Shown here piece after piece: positions 2,660-32,703 of a stretch of DNA of 33,788 nt. The DNA is from a virus, in the IMG/VR virus record IMGVR_UViG_3300043446_002750, positions 1-33,788 of that record. One strand, given 5' to 3'. Numbering within the stretch: position 1 is the stretch's first letter; the number at the start of each line of letters is the position of its first letter. The position numbers and the translations under genes are program-made. The notes under the pieces are model-generated. The model did not search any database. It was given only the letters and a program-made list of their open reading frames with translations, and was not told the origin of the DNA.

Positions 2660-2851
2660 ATGGAACAAGTGCTTATTAAAAATGCTGCCAAAGGCGAATA
2701 CATCAAACGCAAAGCAGATTCAAAAATTATTTACATTAAAGGCAATTATGATCGTGCATCACGTTCTTATTGCTGCACTGATGTAAACGACATTTGCCGC
2801 AATATTTATATCAAAGTAAATAAAAAAGTTTTTGTTGCTTTTGATTATTAA
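2660..2851 (+). CDS. Hypothetical early protein
   Basis: The protein has 63 residues starting MEQVLIKNAAKGEYIKRK. The start at 2660 is chosen because GTGAGG lies just upstream; a longer reading from 2570 would run through the control region. The sequence is basic, with a short beta-rich pattern (SKIIYIKGNYDRASRSY, then NIYIKVNKKVFVAFDY) and two cysteines followed by TDVND. It resembles small early phage proteins that work with DUF932 neighbours, but I do not recognise a family. It is the first gene of the rightward unit. Confidence 0.6.
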   Translation: MEQVLIKNAAKGEYIKRKADSKIIYIKGNYDRASRSYCCTDVNDICRNIYIKVNKKVFVAFDY

Positions 2852-2868
2852 TTCAAAGTGAGGAAATT

Positions 2869-3168
2869 ATGCAACCAATTCAACAAATCAATTACACCAT
2901 TGCAGATGAACGCAATTGGACAATTGGATATACCTATAAAGGTTATGGGTACGCAATCAAACGCCCCAATGGCGGGGTGGTGTGCAATATTGCGGAAGGT
3001 TTGCGCCCCGAAGAAGCCGCGCTTGCAACATTAATTTCCGCCACGCCCGATATGCTTGCTGCGTTGCAAGGCGTACAGGCGGCATGGGATGCAAATCGAT
3101 TGCTTACCAGTGATGAAGCGGCTGCCGTTCGCATTGCAATAGCCAAAGCAACTGGAAATGATGCATAA
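2869..3168 (+). CDS. Hypothetical early protein
   Basis: The protein has 99 residues. The N-terminal part (about 8-45) is beta-rich with WTIGYTYKGYGYAIKRPNGG. The C-terminal half is alanine-rich and helical (EEAALATLISATPDMLAALQ) and ends in DEAAAVRIAIAKATG. The ATPDMLAAL segment is common in small phage proteins of unknown function. The SD is in the repeated leader CAAAGTGAGGAAA, 17 bases after the previous stop. No function can be assigned. Confidence 0.65.
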   Translation: MQPIQQINYTIADERNWTIGYTYKGYGYAIKRPNGGVVCNIAEGLRPEEAALATLISATPDMLAALQGVQAAWDANRLLTSDEAAAVRIAIAKATGNDA

Positions 3169-3225
3169 AATCGTTTTTAAAATGCAATAACATTTATTTA
3201 ATTTTTTCAAAGTGAGGAAACAAAA

Positions 3226-4194
3226 ATGGCACATCAACTTACCACCCGCGAAAATGGTTTTGTCGAAATTGCATGGACAGGCGAAACACCTTGGCATGGT
3301 CTCGGTCAAAAATTGGAAGAAGGCGCAGACGTTGAAACATGGCGCAAAGCCGCCGGTCTTGATTGGGAAATTCAGCGCAAAAATGTCCATTATTTTGACG
3401 ATAATGGCGTTGCTCATTCATTTGACGGGCAGCACGTTTTATATCGTTCGGACAATAATACGCCAATGTCCGTGGTATCCAAAAGATATAAAATTGTGCA
3501 ACCGTCCGAAGTATTGGATTTTTTTAATAAATTGGTCGAACGTCAAGGCTATAAATTGCACACAGCCGGGTCCTTAAAAGGCGGCAAACGCATTTGGGCA
3601 TTAGCCGAAACAGGCAAAGTGGCTGAAGTAATCAACGGCGATCCAGTGGCAAAATATGTGCTTTTGGCAACATCATATGACAAAGGCATGGCAACAACAG
3701 CGCGTGAAACAAATATTCGCGTAGTGTGTGCAAATACCATTGCCATGGCCGATAAAGATACAACCAATGTAGTGTCAATTCCGCACAGCACCGACTTTAT
3801 TGCCGACAATGTATATAATCAATTGGGCATTTCTGTTGATTTGTTTTCAATGTTTATGGAAAAAACCAAACATTTGGCAAAACAGCAAATAAATTCGGGC
3901 AAATTTGATCATTTTATGGCGAATTTATTAAATTCAAAATATTATGAAATGAACGAAAAAGATATTAAAACCAATCGCGCATACAAAAAGATTTTGGAAT
4001 TGTTTGATGGTGGCGCAATTGGAAGCGATATCAAAGGCATTAGAGGCACTGGATGGCAATTGCTCAATGCTGTGACTGAATATGTGGATCATCACGCGCC
4101 AAATCGGAGCCCAGATGCTCGATTGGATTCAGCATGGTTTAGACAAGGCTCCAATCTTAAAATTGACGCAATGAACATTTTATTGGCAGCATAA
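3226..4194 (+). CDS. DUF932 phage/plasmid-like protein
   Basis: The protein has 322 residues and opens MAHQLTTRENGFVEIAWTGE, followed by TPWHGLG. This is the signature start of the DUF932 / TIGR03299 phage/plasmid family, as are residues with VVSKRYKIVQPSEVLDFFN, GGKRIWALAETG and RVVCANTIAMA. The family is widespread in phages and plasmids of proteobacteria; its biochemical role is not established. The length fits the family. The SD leader CAAAGTGAGGAAAC is almost the same as that of the previous gene. It heads the largest early genes, upstream of recombination functions, so a link to DNA processing is plausible but inferred. Confidence 0.85.
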   Translation: MAHQLTTRENGFVEIAWTGETPWHGLGQKLEEGADVETWRKAAGLDWEIQRKNVHYFDDNGVAHSFDGQHVLYRSDNNTPMSVVSKRYKIVQPSEVLDFFNKLVERQGYKLHTAGSLKGGKRIWALAETGKVAEVINGDPVAKYVLLATSYDKGMATTARETNIRVVCANTIAMADKDTTNVVSIPHSTDFIADNVYNQLGISVDLFSMFMEKTKHLAKQQINSGKFDHFMANLLNSKYYEMNEKDIKTNRAYKKILELFDGGAIGSDIKGIRGTGWQLLNAVTEYVDHHAPNRSPDARLDSAWFRQGSNLKIDAMNILLAA

Positions 4195-28102: not shown

Positions 28103-29764
28103 TTAGAAAGTTCTGAACCCATAACCGCCATGATCTACCGGATGATCCAGCGAACAGTGCATGGCAATAATTAAGGCGATAATACCATCAACCTTTGCGG
28201 ATTTGTCTGCTTCATTCTTACGAATTTTTATGTTTCCGTTGACATCTTCGTACACTTCGCAATTACCTAGCTGCCAACCAAGAAACGGATTGCCATCATG
28301 TTTTATATTCTTGCCTAATATTAATTTTTCCAAATGCTTTGATGGGTTGCTTAGTACCGCCATTCCTTGCCCAACCTTTTTAACTGGCATAGCCTGATCG
28401 TGCAGCCGCGCAATTAAACTTGCGGCATTGTAAGCATCGTATCCAATCTCTTTCGGATCATATTTTGCGGATTGCTCACGAATATAATCGGATATTTCCC
28501 GATCATCCATGACGTTGCCTTCAGTCAAATGCAATATGCCTGAATCAATCGCGTTGCGGAATATGTCCTGATAATGTTGCGGCACAAAATTCAATCCTTC
28601 TTCGGGAAGAAAGAATTTCCACTCTGCAAAAAAATCATCTTCCGAATATCGTTTGAGCGTACACACCGCATTCAAATCGCGTGTTGCCGCCAAGTCAAAA
28701 CCAATGAACACCGCTTCCGGTTCACGCTCATCTTTTGGCGCAGCACATAAATCCCAATGTGTACGATCCAGCCAAGCGGAGTTAGCACTCACAAACACAT
28801 TAAGCGTTTTACAAAGAAACTCATTTAGCGTTGCGGGTTTGTGTTTTGCCTCATCTGCCCGTTGTTGGATTGCTTCCTCAAAAACCGTAATGCCATGCAT
28901 CGGGTTTGCTTTTGCCCATACCGCCGGGTCTTTCCAATCATCTTGCGTATCCAGCCCATAAAGCAGCCCAAACCATCGAGGATTATCTGTCGCTTCGCCC
29001 GATAGCATGGTTTGCATCATGAGCAAATCTTCATGAAATTTCGTATCCTTCGTGAAACTTGCCGTAGTGATATATATCCGCAGCGGATTTTTACGCGCCA
29101 CCATACCGGAATGTAGAACCTCAATGGAATTCCTGTCGATAATCTGCGCCGCTTCATCAATGATGGCACATGATGGATTCATGCCATCGCCGGTTTTTTT
29201 GGTATCTCGCGACAATGCTGTAAACATTGATTGCGAATCACCAATTTTAGTAATGTGCTTTTTTTGCACATTGTATAAATTTTGCACTTCTTGCGGCATG
29301 GATTCAATCAACCCTTTTGCCGATGTAAATACAATGCTTGCCTGATCTCTGCTGGTTGCCAGCGTATAAACTTCAGAACCTTTTTCGCCAAACAATAATT
29401 CATATAATCCGATCACAGCAATCAGCGTTGACTTACCTGCTTTGCGAGGAATGAACACGATCACATCATTGACCATGCGCTTGCCTTTGTCCTTCTTAGA
29501 CCAAAAGCCGTAAATGCCGCAGATCAAAAGTATCTGGAATGGTTCGAGGATTACAGGTTGACCGGCAAATACGCCTTTGGCATGGCGCATGATTGACGCA
29601 AATTTTAGGAAATGTTCGACCGCTTCAGGATGAAATTCCCATTCCCATTCGCGATTTTCGAGTTGATTGAGGAATCTTTGACAGGCAAGCAAAACATTCC
29701 GGCAAACAAGTATCTCGCCCTTCACTACTTGATTGGCATATACCACACCATCTTGCCATTTCAT
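28103..29764 (-). CDS. terL: Terminase large subunit
   Basis: The protein has 553 residues. ATPase: Walker A at about 105-113 (IPRKAGKST), Walker B at about 199-204 (CAIIDEA, with E204 catalytic) and the coupling motif ITTASFTKDTKFHED. Nuclease: the aspartates in FIGFDLAATRDLNAVCTL, GYDAYNAASLI and near the end KVDGIIALIIAMH. This is the Terminase_1 (HK97/D3-like) arrangement. It cuts concatemers and drives DNA into the prohead. The ATG overlaps the TerS stop (ATGA). Confidence 0.95.
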   Translation of the reverse strand: MKWQDGVVYANQVVKGEILVCRNVLLACQRFLNQLENREWEWEFHPEAVEHFLKFASIMRHAKGVFAGQPVILEPFQILLICGIYGFWSKKDKGKRMVNDVIVFIPRKAGKSTLIAVIGLYELLFGEKGSEVYTLATSRDQASIVFTSAKGLIESMPQEVQNLYNVQKKHITKIGDSQSMFTALSRDTKKTGDGMNPSCAIIDEAAQIIDRNSIEVLHSGMVARKNPLRIYITTASFTKDTKFHEDLLMMQTMLSGEATDNPRWFGLLYGLDTQDDWKDPAVWAKANPMHGITVFEEAIQQRADEAKHKPATLNEFLCKTLNVFVSANSAWLDRTHWDLCAAPKDEREPEAVFIGFDLAATRDLNAVCTLKRYSEDDFFAEWKFFLPEEGLNFVPQHYQDIFRNAIDSGILHLTEGNVMDDREISDYIREQSAKYDPKEIGYDAYNAASLIARLHDQAMPVKKVGQGMAVLSNPSKHLEKLILGKNIKHDGNPFLGWQLGNCEVYEDVNGNIKIRKNEADKSAKVDGIIALIIAMHCSLDHPVDHGGYGFRTF

Positions 29765-30237
29765 TGCGGTTGCCAGCCCTTCAAGAAGTCAGCAAGGGGT
29801 GACGCATCTTCCAGCTTGTTAGCCGCCAATCGCGATTTAGGCGTAAGGCCAAGTTCATTCATTAGTTTAATGCAATTTTCCATTGCCTTATTTGCCAATG
29901 CAATATAAGGATTAGGCGCAAGTGTTTTGCCGTTGTTTATTTTGACGACCAATGGATGTTTATCTTGCTGCGCCCTTGCGTCAATGTATGTTTGCATTTG
30001 ATCTGCCAACATCATCAACGTGTGCCGATCTTGTTCAGTCCCAATACCATAAACATCAAAAAGATATTGAGCCGTTTCATCTACAAATCTTTGTTTGCTA
30101 AATAATTCAGGTTGACTTGCCCATTCAGCAAAAGGAATTCTGATTTTTAATTTTTCAGGCAACATTACTCCAACATTCATGCCTTTACTGCCATGCATAG
30201 CATGAATTTCGGGTGGTAATTTATTGTGAGCTGCCAT
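29761..30237 (-). CDS. terS: Terminase small subunit (P27-like)
   Basis: The protein has 158 residues. LPPEIHAMHGSKGMNVGVML and PEKLKIRIPFAEW at the start are followed by a helical core (TAQYLFDVYGIGTEQDRHTL, QMQTYIDARAQ) and a C-terminal NPYIALANKAMENCIKLMNE, LGLTPKSRLAANK segment. The P-E-K-I-P-A-W start and the L-G-L-T-P-x-S-R end are the P27-family signature. It recognises phage DNA and starts packaging. The packaging type (cos or pac) cannot be told from this. It overlaps the TerL start by four bases. Confidence 0.9.
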   Translation of the reverse strand: MAAHNKLPPEIHAMHGSKGMNVGVMLPEKLKIRIPFAEWASQPELFSKQRFVDETAQYLFDVYGIGTEQDRHTLMMLADQMQTYIDARAQQDKHPLVVKINNGKTLAPNPYIALANKAMENCIKLMNELGLTPKSRLAANKLEDASPLADFLKGWQPQ

Positions 30238-30239
30238 TT

Positions 30240-31334
30240 TTAATCTGCAAATTTAAATGAATAAGTTTTAACGTCAACTCTAAAACCTTCTTTTCTTTTC
30301 ATATTTCCACCAATAATATTTTTTGTTTTTCTTTCTATGTTAATTAATTTCCATAATGGGTCACGTTTCATGGCAAGATAAACTGGCGTTGATGAAAATT
30401 TTGCCCAACATTCGTATCCAATGGAAGTCATGTATTTTGACGTTTCGGTAATTAATTTAATCCCCATTCCAAGTCCAGCATAATCAGGATGAATTACGGT
30501 TCTATTGCTGTGCATTTTCATTTTGCCGCCACGATGCGGCACATAATTTGCAAAACATTGAAACCCAATTTGATTGCCTTCATGAAATAAGCCAAAAGTT
30601 TTTATATGGCCGCCCGGCAATCTGTCGCTTAAATAATGATATTTGCTAAAATATTTCCATGATTTGTGATCGACTTCTTTAATGTCGAATTGCAATTGCT
30701 CTGGTCGTTTGAAATTTTGACAAAGCGACCTCCGATTAATATATTCTTGTTTATTACAATCAATTACCCAATCAGCATTTAGCCAATCAGCAACATCATA
30801 ATGACAAGAAAGAAGAACAATTTTTTTATTTGTTTTTCGAGCGTGTTTGGCAATGCAATGACTCATTACTTTGGCAACTGTTCTATCGACAACAGAAGTC
30901 CATTCATCAATAACAATAATATCTTCTGAATTTCTTGCCATTTGCAAAGCGCATTCTGCTCTTGCTTTTTGACCATTTGATAAAGTGTAAGCAGGTCTTA
31001 TCCAACAAGCGACCGCAGTTAACCCAACGCCAGCCAACATTGCAGCACATTGTTCATATTCAAAATGTTCTGGAAATTGATCTATAACAGGCTGATTTGG
31101 ATCCAATATTTCTTTAAAACGATCTTCGCCAAATATTTTTTTTGCAAAAGTTGTTTTGCCGCTTCCAGATGCACCAACAATTAACCCAATATTAAAAGCA
31201 GATTCAATGTCAGCCGAAACTTTAAAATGATGAATTGATTTTTTTGTTTGATCTATATCTAATGAATTAGCAGCTTTTGTGCATCTAAAAGAAGTGGCTA
31301 CGGGCGATTGTAAAATCAATTCATAATTTTGCAT
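30240..31334 (-). CDS. ABC ATPase fused to a GNAT acyltransferase domain
   Basis: The protein has 364 residues and two domains. Residues about 1-210 are a soluble ABC ATPase: Walker A GASGSGKTT (54-62), signature LSNGQ (118-122), Walker B IIVIDEW (139-145) with a D-loop SVVD, and the switch histidine H178 in SCHYD. No membrane segment is seen. Residues about 215-364 are a GNAT domain: SKYHYLSDRLPGGHIKTFGL, then IGFQCFANYVPH, the acetyl-CoA loop HPDYAGLGMGIKLI (282-295) and CWAKFSSTPVYLAMKRDP. The gene overlaps the ParB-like gene by 19 bases. Both are more AT-rich than flanking genes. GNAT-fold Mom of phage Mu modifies adenine in DNA; a similar role with ParB-guided DNA targeting is my inference. 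Confidence 0.85.
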   Translation of the reverse strand: MQNYELILQSPVATSFRCTKAANSLDIDQTKKSIHHFKVSADIESAFNIGLIVGASGSGKTTFAKKIFGEDRFKEILDPNQPVIDQFPEHFEYEQCAAMLAGVGLTAVACWIRPAYTLSNGQKARAECALQMARNSEDIIVIDEWTSVVDRTVAKVMSHCIAKHARKTNKKIVLLSCHYDVADWLNADWVIDCNKQEYINRRSLCQNFKRPEQLQFDIKEVDHKSWKYFSKYHYLSDRLPGGHIKTFGLFHEGNQIGFQCFANYVPHRGGKMKMHSNRTVIHPDYAGLGMGIKLITETSKYMTSIGYECWAKFSSTPVYLAMKRDPLWKLINIERKTKNIIGGNMKRKEGFRVDVKTYSFKFAD

Positions 31335-31867
31335 TCGAAGCCTCTTTCTTTCATTTCATCAAATAATTTTTGTAATTCTGTTTCTGTAATGGTTTCAATT
31401 AACAATAAATTTCTATTTCCATCATCGGATATTTCTTTTACTTCATCATCAATTTCATTTTCAAATAATTTATCTATTTCGTTTTTGTCAAAACCCAACA
31501 ATTCCAAATTAAAACCTTCTAATTTTAAATCTTCAACTTCTAAAGCAAGCATATCGTTATCCCAACTTGCATTTAAAGCAAGTTTATTGTCGGCAATAAT
31601 TAATGCTTTTTTCTGCGTTGGAGACAAATGAGAAAGTTCAATTACAGGAATTTTTTTCAAGCCAAGTTTTCTAGCCGCTGCCAACCGCCCATGCCCAGCA
31701 ATAATTCCAGCTTCGCCATCAACCAAAATTGGATTTGTCCAACCAAATTCTTTTATGCTTGCGGCAATTTGCGCGATTTGCTCATCGCTGTGAGTTCTGG
31801 AATTCCTTGCGTAAGGAATTAATTTCTCAATTTCAATTTCTTGTATTTTCATTTTGTTTTCTTTCAT
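31316..31867 (-). CDS. ParB/Srx-fold N-terminal domain protein
   Basis: The protein has 183 residues from ATG 31867; ATG 31852 (MKIQEIEIEKLIPYARN) is an alternative start. A TTG at 31900 is unlikely. The ParB N-terminal domain is clear: EIEKLIPYARNSRTHSDEQI, AASIKEFGWTNPILVDGEAG, IIAGHGRLAAARKLGLKKIP. The GHGR motif is the nucleotide-binding/catalytic core. The C-terminal part is acidic (FENEIDDEVKEISDD) and ends TELQKLFDEMKERGFECKIM. There is no C-terminal ParB dimerisation domain and no ParA, so plasmid partition is unlikely. Phage ParB domains of this type often accompany DNA-modifying genes; here the partner is the ABC-GNAT fusion. Confidence 0.85.
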   Translation of the reverse strand: MKENKMKIQEIEIEKLIPYARNSRTHSDEQIAQIAASIKEFGWTNPILVDGEAGIIAGHGRLAAARKLGLKKIPVIELSHLSPTQKKALIIADNKLALNASWDNDMLALEVEDLKLEGFNLELLGFDKNEIDKLFENEIDDEVKEISDDGNRNLLLIETITETELQKLFDEMKERGFECKIMN

Positions 31868-32083
31868 TGGAAAATTTAACCCCCCCATGTTTTGGCTCAA
31901 TATGCGTAAAATTGGGCCCGCGCCTGCTCGCTGTTATCCACAAATTTTTTAAGTTATTCACAACATTTTGAACCTTTTTTGAGCAAAACGCCGAGTTATC
32001 CACAGACTTATCCACAAAATTATTTTTGATCGCGATGCTTGCCACATTGCTAACCATTGCCAATAGTTTCACGCTATAAGCTA
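31868..32083. other. Intergenic region with DnaA boxes, candidate replication origin
   Basis: A gene-free stretch of about 216 bases lies between the HNH and ParB genes. It contains four DnaA boxes, AT-rich runs between them (AAATTTTTTAAG, AACATTTTGAACC, TTTTTT), a GC-rich patch (GGGCCCGCGCC at 31915-31925) and a run of C. A - strand open frame across it (31833-32087) simply translates the DnaA boxes and has no SD. It may also hold a promoter for the ParB and late genes. Confidence 0.65.
31934..32016 (+). repeat. Four same-direction DnaA boxes
   Basis: TTATCCACA occurs at 31934-31942, 31996-32004 and 32008-32016, and TTATTCACA at 31954-31962. All match the bacterial consensus TTATNCACA and point the same way. 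Start-to-start distances are 20, 42 and 12 bases. Four hits within 83 bases are far more than chance and suggest host DnaA binding for replication start or control. Confidence 0.8.
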
Positions 32084-32506
32084 TCAATACATCATCCCCG
32101 ATAACCTGATGTAATCATCATCACTGTAGCGCGTCACGCCATGTGCTGTGTAATGGTTGTATATCCCTTTGCGCTCATCTTGTCCTTTTAGCGTATGACA
32201 TCCAGTGCATAGCGATTGAAACAGGTTGATCCTAAACTTTGCTGCGTCACGCCTGTGCGGGAATACATGGTCAACCGTTGTTGCCGCCGTTATCTTTCCC
32301 TCATGCTGGCATCGGGCGCATAGCGGTTGTTTGCTTAGTTGCCGCGCCCTAATCTTGTCCCATGCCTGTTGGTTGTATAAGCGACTGTTGGCCTTTCCTA
32401 TCTCAGTCATACCGCCGCCATGCTCAATGCAATATGCGGATCGACTGGTCTTAGGATTGCGGCATTGATACTGCTTGCATTCCTTGTTCAGCGGTGCGGT
32501 GGGCAT
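32084..32506 (-). CDS. HNH endonuclease
   Basis: The protein has 140 residues from ATG 32506, chosen because it overlaps the previous stop as TAATG with GGGGTGG as SD; longer frames start inside the preceding gene. The N-terminal zinc site is KECKQYQCRNPKTSRSAYC then IEH. The HNH core is CARCQHEGKITAATTVDHVF, PHRRDAAKFRINLFQSLCTG then CHTLKGQDE. In many long-tailed phages HNH proteins next to terminase genes assist DNA packaging cleavage; here an origin region and the ParB/ABC-GNAT genes stand between the two. Confidence 0.9.
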   Translation of the reverse strand: MPTAPLNKECKQYQCRNPKTSRSAYCIEHGGGMTEIGKANSRLYNQQAWDKIRARQLSKQPLCARCQHEGKITAATTVDHVFPHRRDAAKFRINLFQSLCTGCHTLKGQDERKGIYNHYTAHGVTRYSDDDYIRLSGMMY

Positions 32507-32703
32507 TATCGTGCCACCCCGCGCCATTGCAATGATTGATAGGATGATTTGCATTCGGCATCAGGGTATCTGTCTGCATACCATTGCTTACCATCCCAAT
32601 AACAATACTCAATCACGTTCGTGCGGTAGATGGGATATAAGCGTTGATATATACCTTCATGCACAGGCAATTGCCATCCACTAAACCATTGGGTAACCTG
32701 CAT
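32506..32703 (-). CDS. Hypothetical protein, aromatic-rich
   Basis: The protein has 65 residues and is rich in Trp and Tyr (MQVTQWFSGWQLPVHEGIYQ, then YCYWDGKQWYADRYPDAE, and QSLQWRGVAR). The pattern W..P.H.G.Y.......YsyWdGk.WY is frequent in small phage proteins whose function is unknown. It overlaps the HNH start as TAATG. Confidence 0.65.
   Translation of the reverse strand: MQVTQWFSGWQLPVHEGIYQRLYPIYRTNVIEYCYWDGKQWYADRYPDAECKSSYQSLQWRGVAR

Follow-up and report, generated by a model that had tools for sequence, protein, structure and literature searches.

The window, as I refer to the whole stretch of viral DNA analysed (33,788 nucleotides), carries on its minus strand two overlapping genes followed directly by those for the small (TerS) and then the large (TerL) terminase subunit (Table 1). 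The upstream gene, parB, encodes a ParB_N-domain protein ending in a short tail, and the second encodes a fusion of an ABC ATPase with a GNAT acyltransferase domain (hereafter ABC-GNAT). The parB start is either the ATG at 31852, as in the homologue L001, or an alternative ATG at 31867, the one chosen in the initial annotation. The open reading frame coordinates agree exactly with the 19-base overlap given in the initial annotation, and I propose that the overlap reflects translational coupling. The pair is also AT-rich, as had been stated, with GC contents of 34.1% and 32.4% for the two genes against 41.2% for the whole window. No near-identical match to the window was found among phages.

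Table 1. Features of the cassette in the window, with the accessory genes of related loci.
Feature	Position	Strand	Supporting result
ABC ATPase-GNAT fusion gene, 364 aa, ATG start	30240-31334	minus	phrog_11143 1.2e-73; AF2 pLDDT 91.3
ABC ATPase domain, residues 1-205	30720-31334	minus	PF00005 above cut-off; Foldseek to ABC nucleotide-binding domains
Walker A GASGSGKT, residues 54-61	31152-31175	minus	G54, S56, G57, G59, K60 invariant in 70 homologues
ABC signature LSNGQ, residues 118-122	30969-30983	minus	L118, S119, G121 invariant in 70 homologues
Walker B IIVIDE, residues 139-144, catalytic Glu144	30903-30920	minus	D143, E144 invariant in 70 homologues
H-loop His178	30801-30803	minus	invariant in 70 homologues
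GNAT acyltransferase domain, residues 215-364	30243-30692	minus	AF2 model of residues 208-364; Foldseek PDB GNATs, TM 0.55-0.69
His233-Tyr234 pair, early in GNAT domain	30633-30638	minus	invariant in 70 homologues; matches HY of Mom
Canonical acyl-CoA P-loop AGLGMG, residues 286-291	30462-30479	minus	G287 invariant; G289, G291 at least 90% (70 homologues)
ParB_N-domain protein gene with C-terminal beta-alpha-beta tail, 178 aa	31316-31852	minus	PF02195 6.4e-9
ParB C-terminal tail module (NRNLLLIETITETELQKLFDEMKERGFECKIMN), proposed ABC-GNAT dock	31319-31417	minus	tail within 150 nt of ABC-GNAT, 162/199 loci
parB/abc-gnat overlap, 19 nt	31316-31334	minus	ORF coordinates
TerS, neighbour	29761-30237	minus	PF05119 9e-16
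TerL, neighbour	28103-29764	minus	PF20441 1.5e-45
Aspartate decarboxylase and CoA-transferase III genes, related loci	L043 5101-6212; L154 about 2660-3700; L146 2425-2913 and 7239-8162
ASCH-domain neighbours, related loci	L019, L029, L036, L117, L121, L138, L140-L143, L146, L151, L152, L157, L158, L166 and others

Upstream of parB, four TTATNCACA DnaA-box-like sites lie within 83 bp (31934-32016), so that the pair does sit between a DnaA-box cluster and the terminase genes, as first described. The window as a whole holds 5 such sites, against 2.2 expected. Two or more DnaA boxes upstream were found at no related locus; I therefore rejected them as part of the cassette, and the cluster is probably a phage-specific origin or regulatory site. 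An HNH endonuclease gene lies at 32084-32554, also upstream of the pair. In L001, a 91%-identical relative, an HNH-like ORF is on the opposite side, which suggests that parB and abc-gnat move as a unit relative to HNH genes.

The N-terminal half of the fusion is, by its motifs, an ABC ATPase (ABC_tran, 29 bits with a cut-off of 25). The Walker A, LSNGQ signature, Walker B glutamate and H-loop are in place and invariant in 70 homologues, as is the D-loop D150, and with every ATPase catalytic element present the domain is predicted to be catalytically complete. The protein has no membrane domain, and its initial description as a complete soluble ABC ATPase is borne out. Apart from 9s30 (E 0.035-0.13), a sequence search for solved relatives returned nothing but generic ABC proteins. 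The AF2 model of the complete fusion matches the GNAT protein of Leptospira LE4 from end to end (TM 0.9). In phages of Oenococcus, Lactococcus and Streptococcus the protein is split: ABC and GNAT are two genes there, still preceded by this ParB, which confirms the two-domain reading.

For the GNAT domain, the window sequence is below threshold in Pfam, and the best family member reaches 3.3e-10. Modelled by AF2 (pLDDT 88.6), the domain resembles many GNAT crystal structures in Foldseek, in agreement with the initial call of a GNAT domain fused to the ATPase. The solved structures closest to it, at 7-14% identity, belong to protein and small-molecule acetyltransferases. With TM values of ~0.6 to many GNATs and no group preferred, classification by fold was uninformative. 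The structural comparison upholds the fold, and bears out no kinship to a particular GNAT group.

Mom of phage Mu is a GNAT-fold DNA adenine modification enzyme controlled by Com. Membership of ABC-GNAT in the Mom family was rejected on Pfam, PHROG and hhalign scores. The Pfam Mom profile (PF25680) gives 14.2 bits on the window protein, with a cut-off of 27.1; the PHROG Mom profile matches 8 of 70 members, its best value of 8e-4 being outscored by generic GNAT families (best 3.3e-10); and hhalign of the domain with Mom yields E 0.005-0.017 at a probability of 1-3%. That alignment places H233-Y234 on H58-Y59 of Mom, and weak similarity across the Mom N-terminus recurs in several ABC-GNAT members. 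The two proteins are alike in their GNAT fold, in an invariant His-Tyr pair at the same place and, as described below, in their genomic slots, behind com in a Mu-like phage and behind ParB_N in Arthrobacter and Psychrobacter phages. They differ in that ABC-GNAT keeps the acyl-CoA P-loop GxGxG, not seen in Mom in the alignment, possesses an additional ABC ATPase domain and a different partner tail, and fails the Mom profile tests.

The window ParB matches ParB_N (PF02195) at 36.2 bits, with a cut-off of 26.3, as well as phrog_620 (6e-59) and the ParB-methyltransferase family phrog_498 (4e-56). Assignment as a partition ParB was rejected (TIGR00180, 40.2 bits with a cut-off of 58.45), and a second DNA-binding domain was not found in the 178 residues, which comprise only ParB_N and the tail. 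Phage ParB_N-DNA methyltransferase proteins (phrog_498, PADLOC MTase_II) have a ParB_N up to ~60% identical, and similarly use it together with a DNA-modifying enzyme, but a methyltransferase replaces ABC-GNAT and the beta-alpha-beta tail is absent. ParB_N is common to Mom and to DNA methyltransferases, in line with the earlier remark that phage ParB domains often accompany DNA modification genes.

Across relatives, the tail spans 33-45 residues at the ParB C-terminus, with a predicted beta-alpha-beta pattern, a near-invariant Glu (98%), a Gly (93%) and two frequent Cys. It tracks ABC-GNAT, not ParB. In a tblastn search of the phage collection with the tail, 15/15 matches lie directly before ABC-GNAT; among the matches listed for ParB, all relatives matching through the tail precede ABC-GNAT (9/9 and 6/6), while for the others the match stops before the tail, and these are often annotated as DNA methyltransferases. 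A Mu-like clade lacks ParB_N, and the tail is there a microprotein in its own right, 40-80 residues long and ending at the ABC-GNAT start. These lone-tail members (Mu-like phages and related prophages, from Porphyromonas, Pseudomonas, Rhizobiales and gut phages) form one well-supported clade, within which a Gordonia phage with both ParB and tail is nested. Since the tail tracks ABC-GNAT and can occur by itself, ParB_N has the look of an exchangeable adaptor, and the tail that of a dock specific to the enzyme. A clade of T4-like and jumbo phages has ABC-GNAT with neither ParB nor tail, so this adaptor is not universal.

The ABC-GNAT family is large and mostly phage-borne, with relatives in 53 annotated phage records, 238 confirmed among IMG/VR candidates and 489 among genome-contig candidates. 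The latter came from an alignment-based scan; a single-sequence scan of the genome contigs found none. These proteins are currently annotated as "ABC transporter", "siderophore transporter" or "hypothetical". The initial annotation had made its proposal depend on the pair being conserved together, and this is what was found: among 199 loci whose upstream sequence reaches 600 nt or more, the tail lies within 150 nt upstream of ABC-GNAT in 162 and ParB_N within 700 nt in 152. An overlap with the upstream gene is conserved in 123 of 159 loci, mostly of 22, 19, 16 or 4 nt (22 nt in 57 loci; 19 nt, as in the window, in 19), and is therefore not due to chance. The pairing first described consequently stands as co-conservation, with the correction that what is conserved alongside ABC-GNAT is the tail; the ParB fold itself can be missing. 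Of 204 loci, 118 have a terminase-like cluster no more than 3 kb from ABC-GNAT, among them 37 of the 77 genome loci, which is consistent with prophages.

Comparison of syntenic phages places ABC-GNAT and Mom in the same slot. The Arthrobacter phages EastWest and Sonny have flanking genes 64%, 80% and 45% identical, and a ParB_N 54.5% identical over 132 residues; in EastWest the slot holds the tail and ABC-GNAT. Sonny instead has Mom there, together with one further small gene and a zinc-ribbon-like tail bearing a Cys pair (CPNCGHTF). The swap is repeated, with other flanks, between a Psychrobacter pygoscelis prophage (L141) and phage Y8A (ParB_N 73%, TerS 67% and TerL 35% identical), where the tail and ABC-GNAT of the prophage correspond to a different tail and Mom in Y8A. 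This Y8A Mom homologue (L255 3596-4249), deposited as "hypothetical" and located behind ParB, is 39.5% identical to Mu Mom; the Y8A genome paper assigns Mom to another ORF (69). In Microbacterium phage Antuna, a Cys-pair ParB overlaps Mom. A two-Cys zinc-ribbon-like tail likewise replaces the beta-alpha-beta tail in ParB_N proteins before Mom at L252 1645-2220 and L251 1969-2502.

The Mu-like phage Komp_PAO1_1 has the gene order tail-fibre assembly, Com, tail microprotein, ABC-GNAT, formyltransferase, which is the com-mom position. Its Com zinc ribbon (L044 3644-3892; PF10122, 9e-21) is an unannotated gene, and Com-like motifs also precede ABC-GNAT in L201 and L212. Mom scores above cut-off in 1 of 32 ABC-GNAT records; this exception, the T4-like Aeromonas phage AsFcp_4 (L050, MH791407), has a bona fide Mom (194 bits) together with ABC-GNAT. 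By gene content, ABC-GNAT and Mom thus replace each other in one slot behind a conserved ParB_N in two phage pairs. This Mom-type slot is found in relatives, the window itself having the ParB-terminase slot, and a common slot is not proof of the same biochemistry.

That a GNAT coupled to an ABC ATPase would carry out an uncharacterised acyl modification of DNA bases has been predicted by Iyer, Aravind and colleagues, naming phage pT24 (PMC7824862), and the core acylation idea is therefore not new. Tenacibaculum pT24 corresponds to tblastn matches H29/H30, at 35.7% identity (7e-39). With this homology and the same domain coupling, the window protein is, by sequence, a member of that GNAT-ABC family (phrog_11143 / pT24 type), which has the same domain pair and the same predicted role. 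The passage of PMC7824862 on GNAT-ABC proteins is silent on the ParB tail, the exchange with Mom, com, the formyltransferase and the beta-alanyl-CoA genes. Neither were the tail, the Mom swaps, the Com link or the donor and capping genes found in the literature examined, a scope outside which the original 2013 prediction lies.

I consider it likely that the locus, in the late region, is a phage cassette for modifying DNA bases and takes the place of Mom in function; it probably acylates bases in the DNA of the phage itself, which would thereby escape bacterial restriction. The DNA-modification role is well supported, since a known DNA-modifying enzyme fills the same slot in related phages, while the acyl chemistry is a prediction. 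Judging from the comparisons, ParB_N would be a DNA-targeting adaptor common to Mom and phage DNA methyltransferases, and its beta-alpha-beta tail would dock specifically on ABC-GNAT. Going by what is known of such families, the ABC domain may dimerise in an ATP-dependent manner to clamp or open DNA, or to gate the active site, and the GNAT domain would take an acyl group from acyl-CoA and attach it to an exocyclic base amine, either N6 of adenine or N4 of cytosine. Modification shortly before packaging would render the phage DNA resistant to restriction. DNA modification before packaging, the reading put forward initially, is thus partly supported and is the best-supported reading of the cassette: the Mom slot swap, the com position, the sharing of ParB_N and the adjacency to terminase speak for it, as does the independent published prediction of DNA acylation, while the Mom profile and the nearest solved structures speak against.

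An improbable alternative is that the enzyme acylates a host protein (RNA polymerase, a nuclease or a ribosomal protein) for takeover or to block defence, the ATPase and ParB choosing the target. Phage GNATs of such a kind exist, namely Rac of phiKMV-like phages (PMC7824862), and RimI and other protein acetyltransferases are among the structural neighbours of the GNAT domain. However, this would leave unexplained the exchange with Mom in two syntenic slots, the com gene, the sharing of ParB_N with DNA methyltransferases and the position beside terminase.

TmcA is an NTPase joined to a GNAT module that acetylates a nucleobase at N4, and a similar acylation of RNA or tRNA by ABC-GNAT, guarding phage translation or poisoning the host, can be envisaged. 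This tRNA cytidine acetyltransferase (PDB 2zpa) shares the NTPase-GNAT architecture and is among the structural matches, although a weak one (rank 50). ASCH proteins also adjoin the gene in 33 loci, and RNA or modified bases are the ligands of PUA/ASCH domains (PMC7641849). I nevertheless find an RNA substrate quite unlikely: TmcA has a helicase-type ATPase, not an ABC one, acts on RNA and shows no sequence relation to ABC-GNAT, no RNA-binding domain was found, and the replacement of Mom and the association with ParB_N point to DNA.

It is very doubtful that the pair is a prophage-borne defence module, in which the ABC ATPase would sense invading DNA and the GNAT domain be the effector. GNATs and ABC ATPases are known from defence systems, and PADLOC returns Mad3 (2e-11) and Mad8 (2e-6), but these matches to the MADS defence system are confined to the ATPase and are compatible with the similarity expected among ABC proteins in general; the gene is also present in T4-like phages and usually lies within the packaging region, and no further system genes were recognised in the window scans, with PADLOC applied to the cassette proteins. 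Least credible is a role in DNA partition or packaging start, in which ParB would mark a position close to the origin-like DnaA boxes and the ATPase would be an SMC-like terminase loader. The location between the DnaA-box cluster and terminase would suit this, but neither a second ParB domain nor a partition-family hit above cut-off was found, no related locus has at least two upstream DnaA boxes, and the GNAT domain would be left unexplained.

For the preferred reading, modification of phage DNA bases, the genes accompanying ABC-GNAT in some relatives give hints of the chemistry. Within the Mu-like/Gordonia clade, 11 loci have a Formyl_trans_N gene directly downstream, overlapping or abutting ABC-GNAT. 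An aspartate decarboxylase (PF02261, 2e-33) and a CoA-transferase III (PF02515, 2e-8) accompany it in three unrelated hosts, a Rhodococcus phage, an Alsobacter genome and a Thermoanaerobaculia genome. In 2 of the 3 they directly follow ABC-GNAT, with their order conserved. These genes hint at an amine-bearing acyl group: aspartate could be converted to beta-alanine and then to beta-alanyl-CoA as donor, or a free amine be capped by formylation. Both the donor and the capping ideas are speculative, and concern sub-clades to which the window does not belong; the formyltransferase, decarboxylase, CoA-transferase and ASCH genes are all absent from its own cassette. A broader version, in which ABC-GNAT installs an aminoacyl-type base (beta-alanyl or glycyl, sometimes N-formylated) through a ParB_N with swappable tails for Mom, ABC-GNAT and methyltransferases, is a tentative suggestion.

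The ASCH-domain genes mostly converge with the 3' end of ABC-GNAT, often overlapping it; in Oenococcus and Streptococcus phages, ASCH neighbours are on the same strand. YqfB deacylates N4-acylcytosine derivatives (PMC6972931), with the triad Lys21-Thr24-Glu74 and Arg26. The 33 ASCH neighbours nearly always keep the Lys and Arg, with Thr24 replaced by Glu. A YqfB-like deacylase, erasing the modification, was rejected on the loss of this Thr nucleophile, and for the same reason a reader function appears at least as likely as that of an eraser. The (PIN)-GNAT-EVE operons (PMC7641849), for which base acylation has been proposed too, similarly combine a GNAT with an ASCH neighbour, but contain EVE and PIN domains where the ABC-GNAT cassette has ABC and ParB.

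If the aminoacyl, modular-adaptor version were true, phages would swap their DNA chemistry gene by gene in one slot. The accessory genes narrow the modification to concrete masses for a search, the swap pairs supply matched controls, and the tail offers a handle for redirecting a base-modifying enzyme. If the DNA-modification reading is right, this widespread phage family would represent a second GNAT-based route to DNA hypermodification, beside that of Mom.
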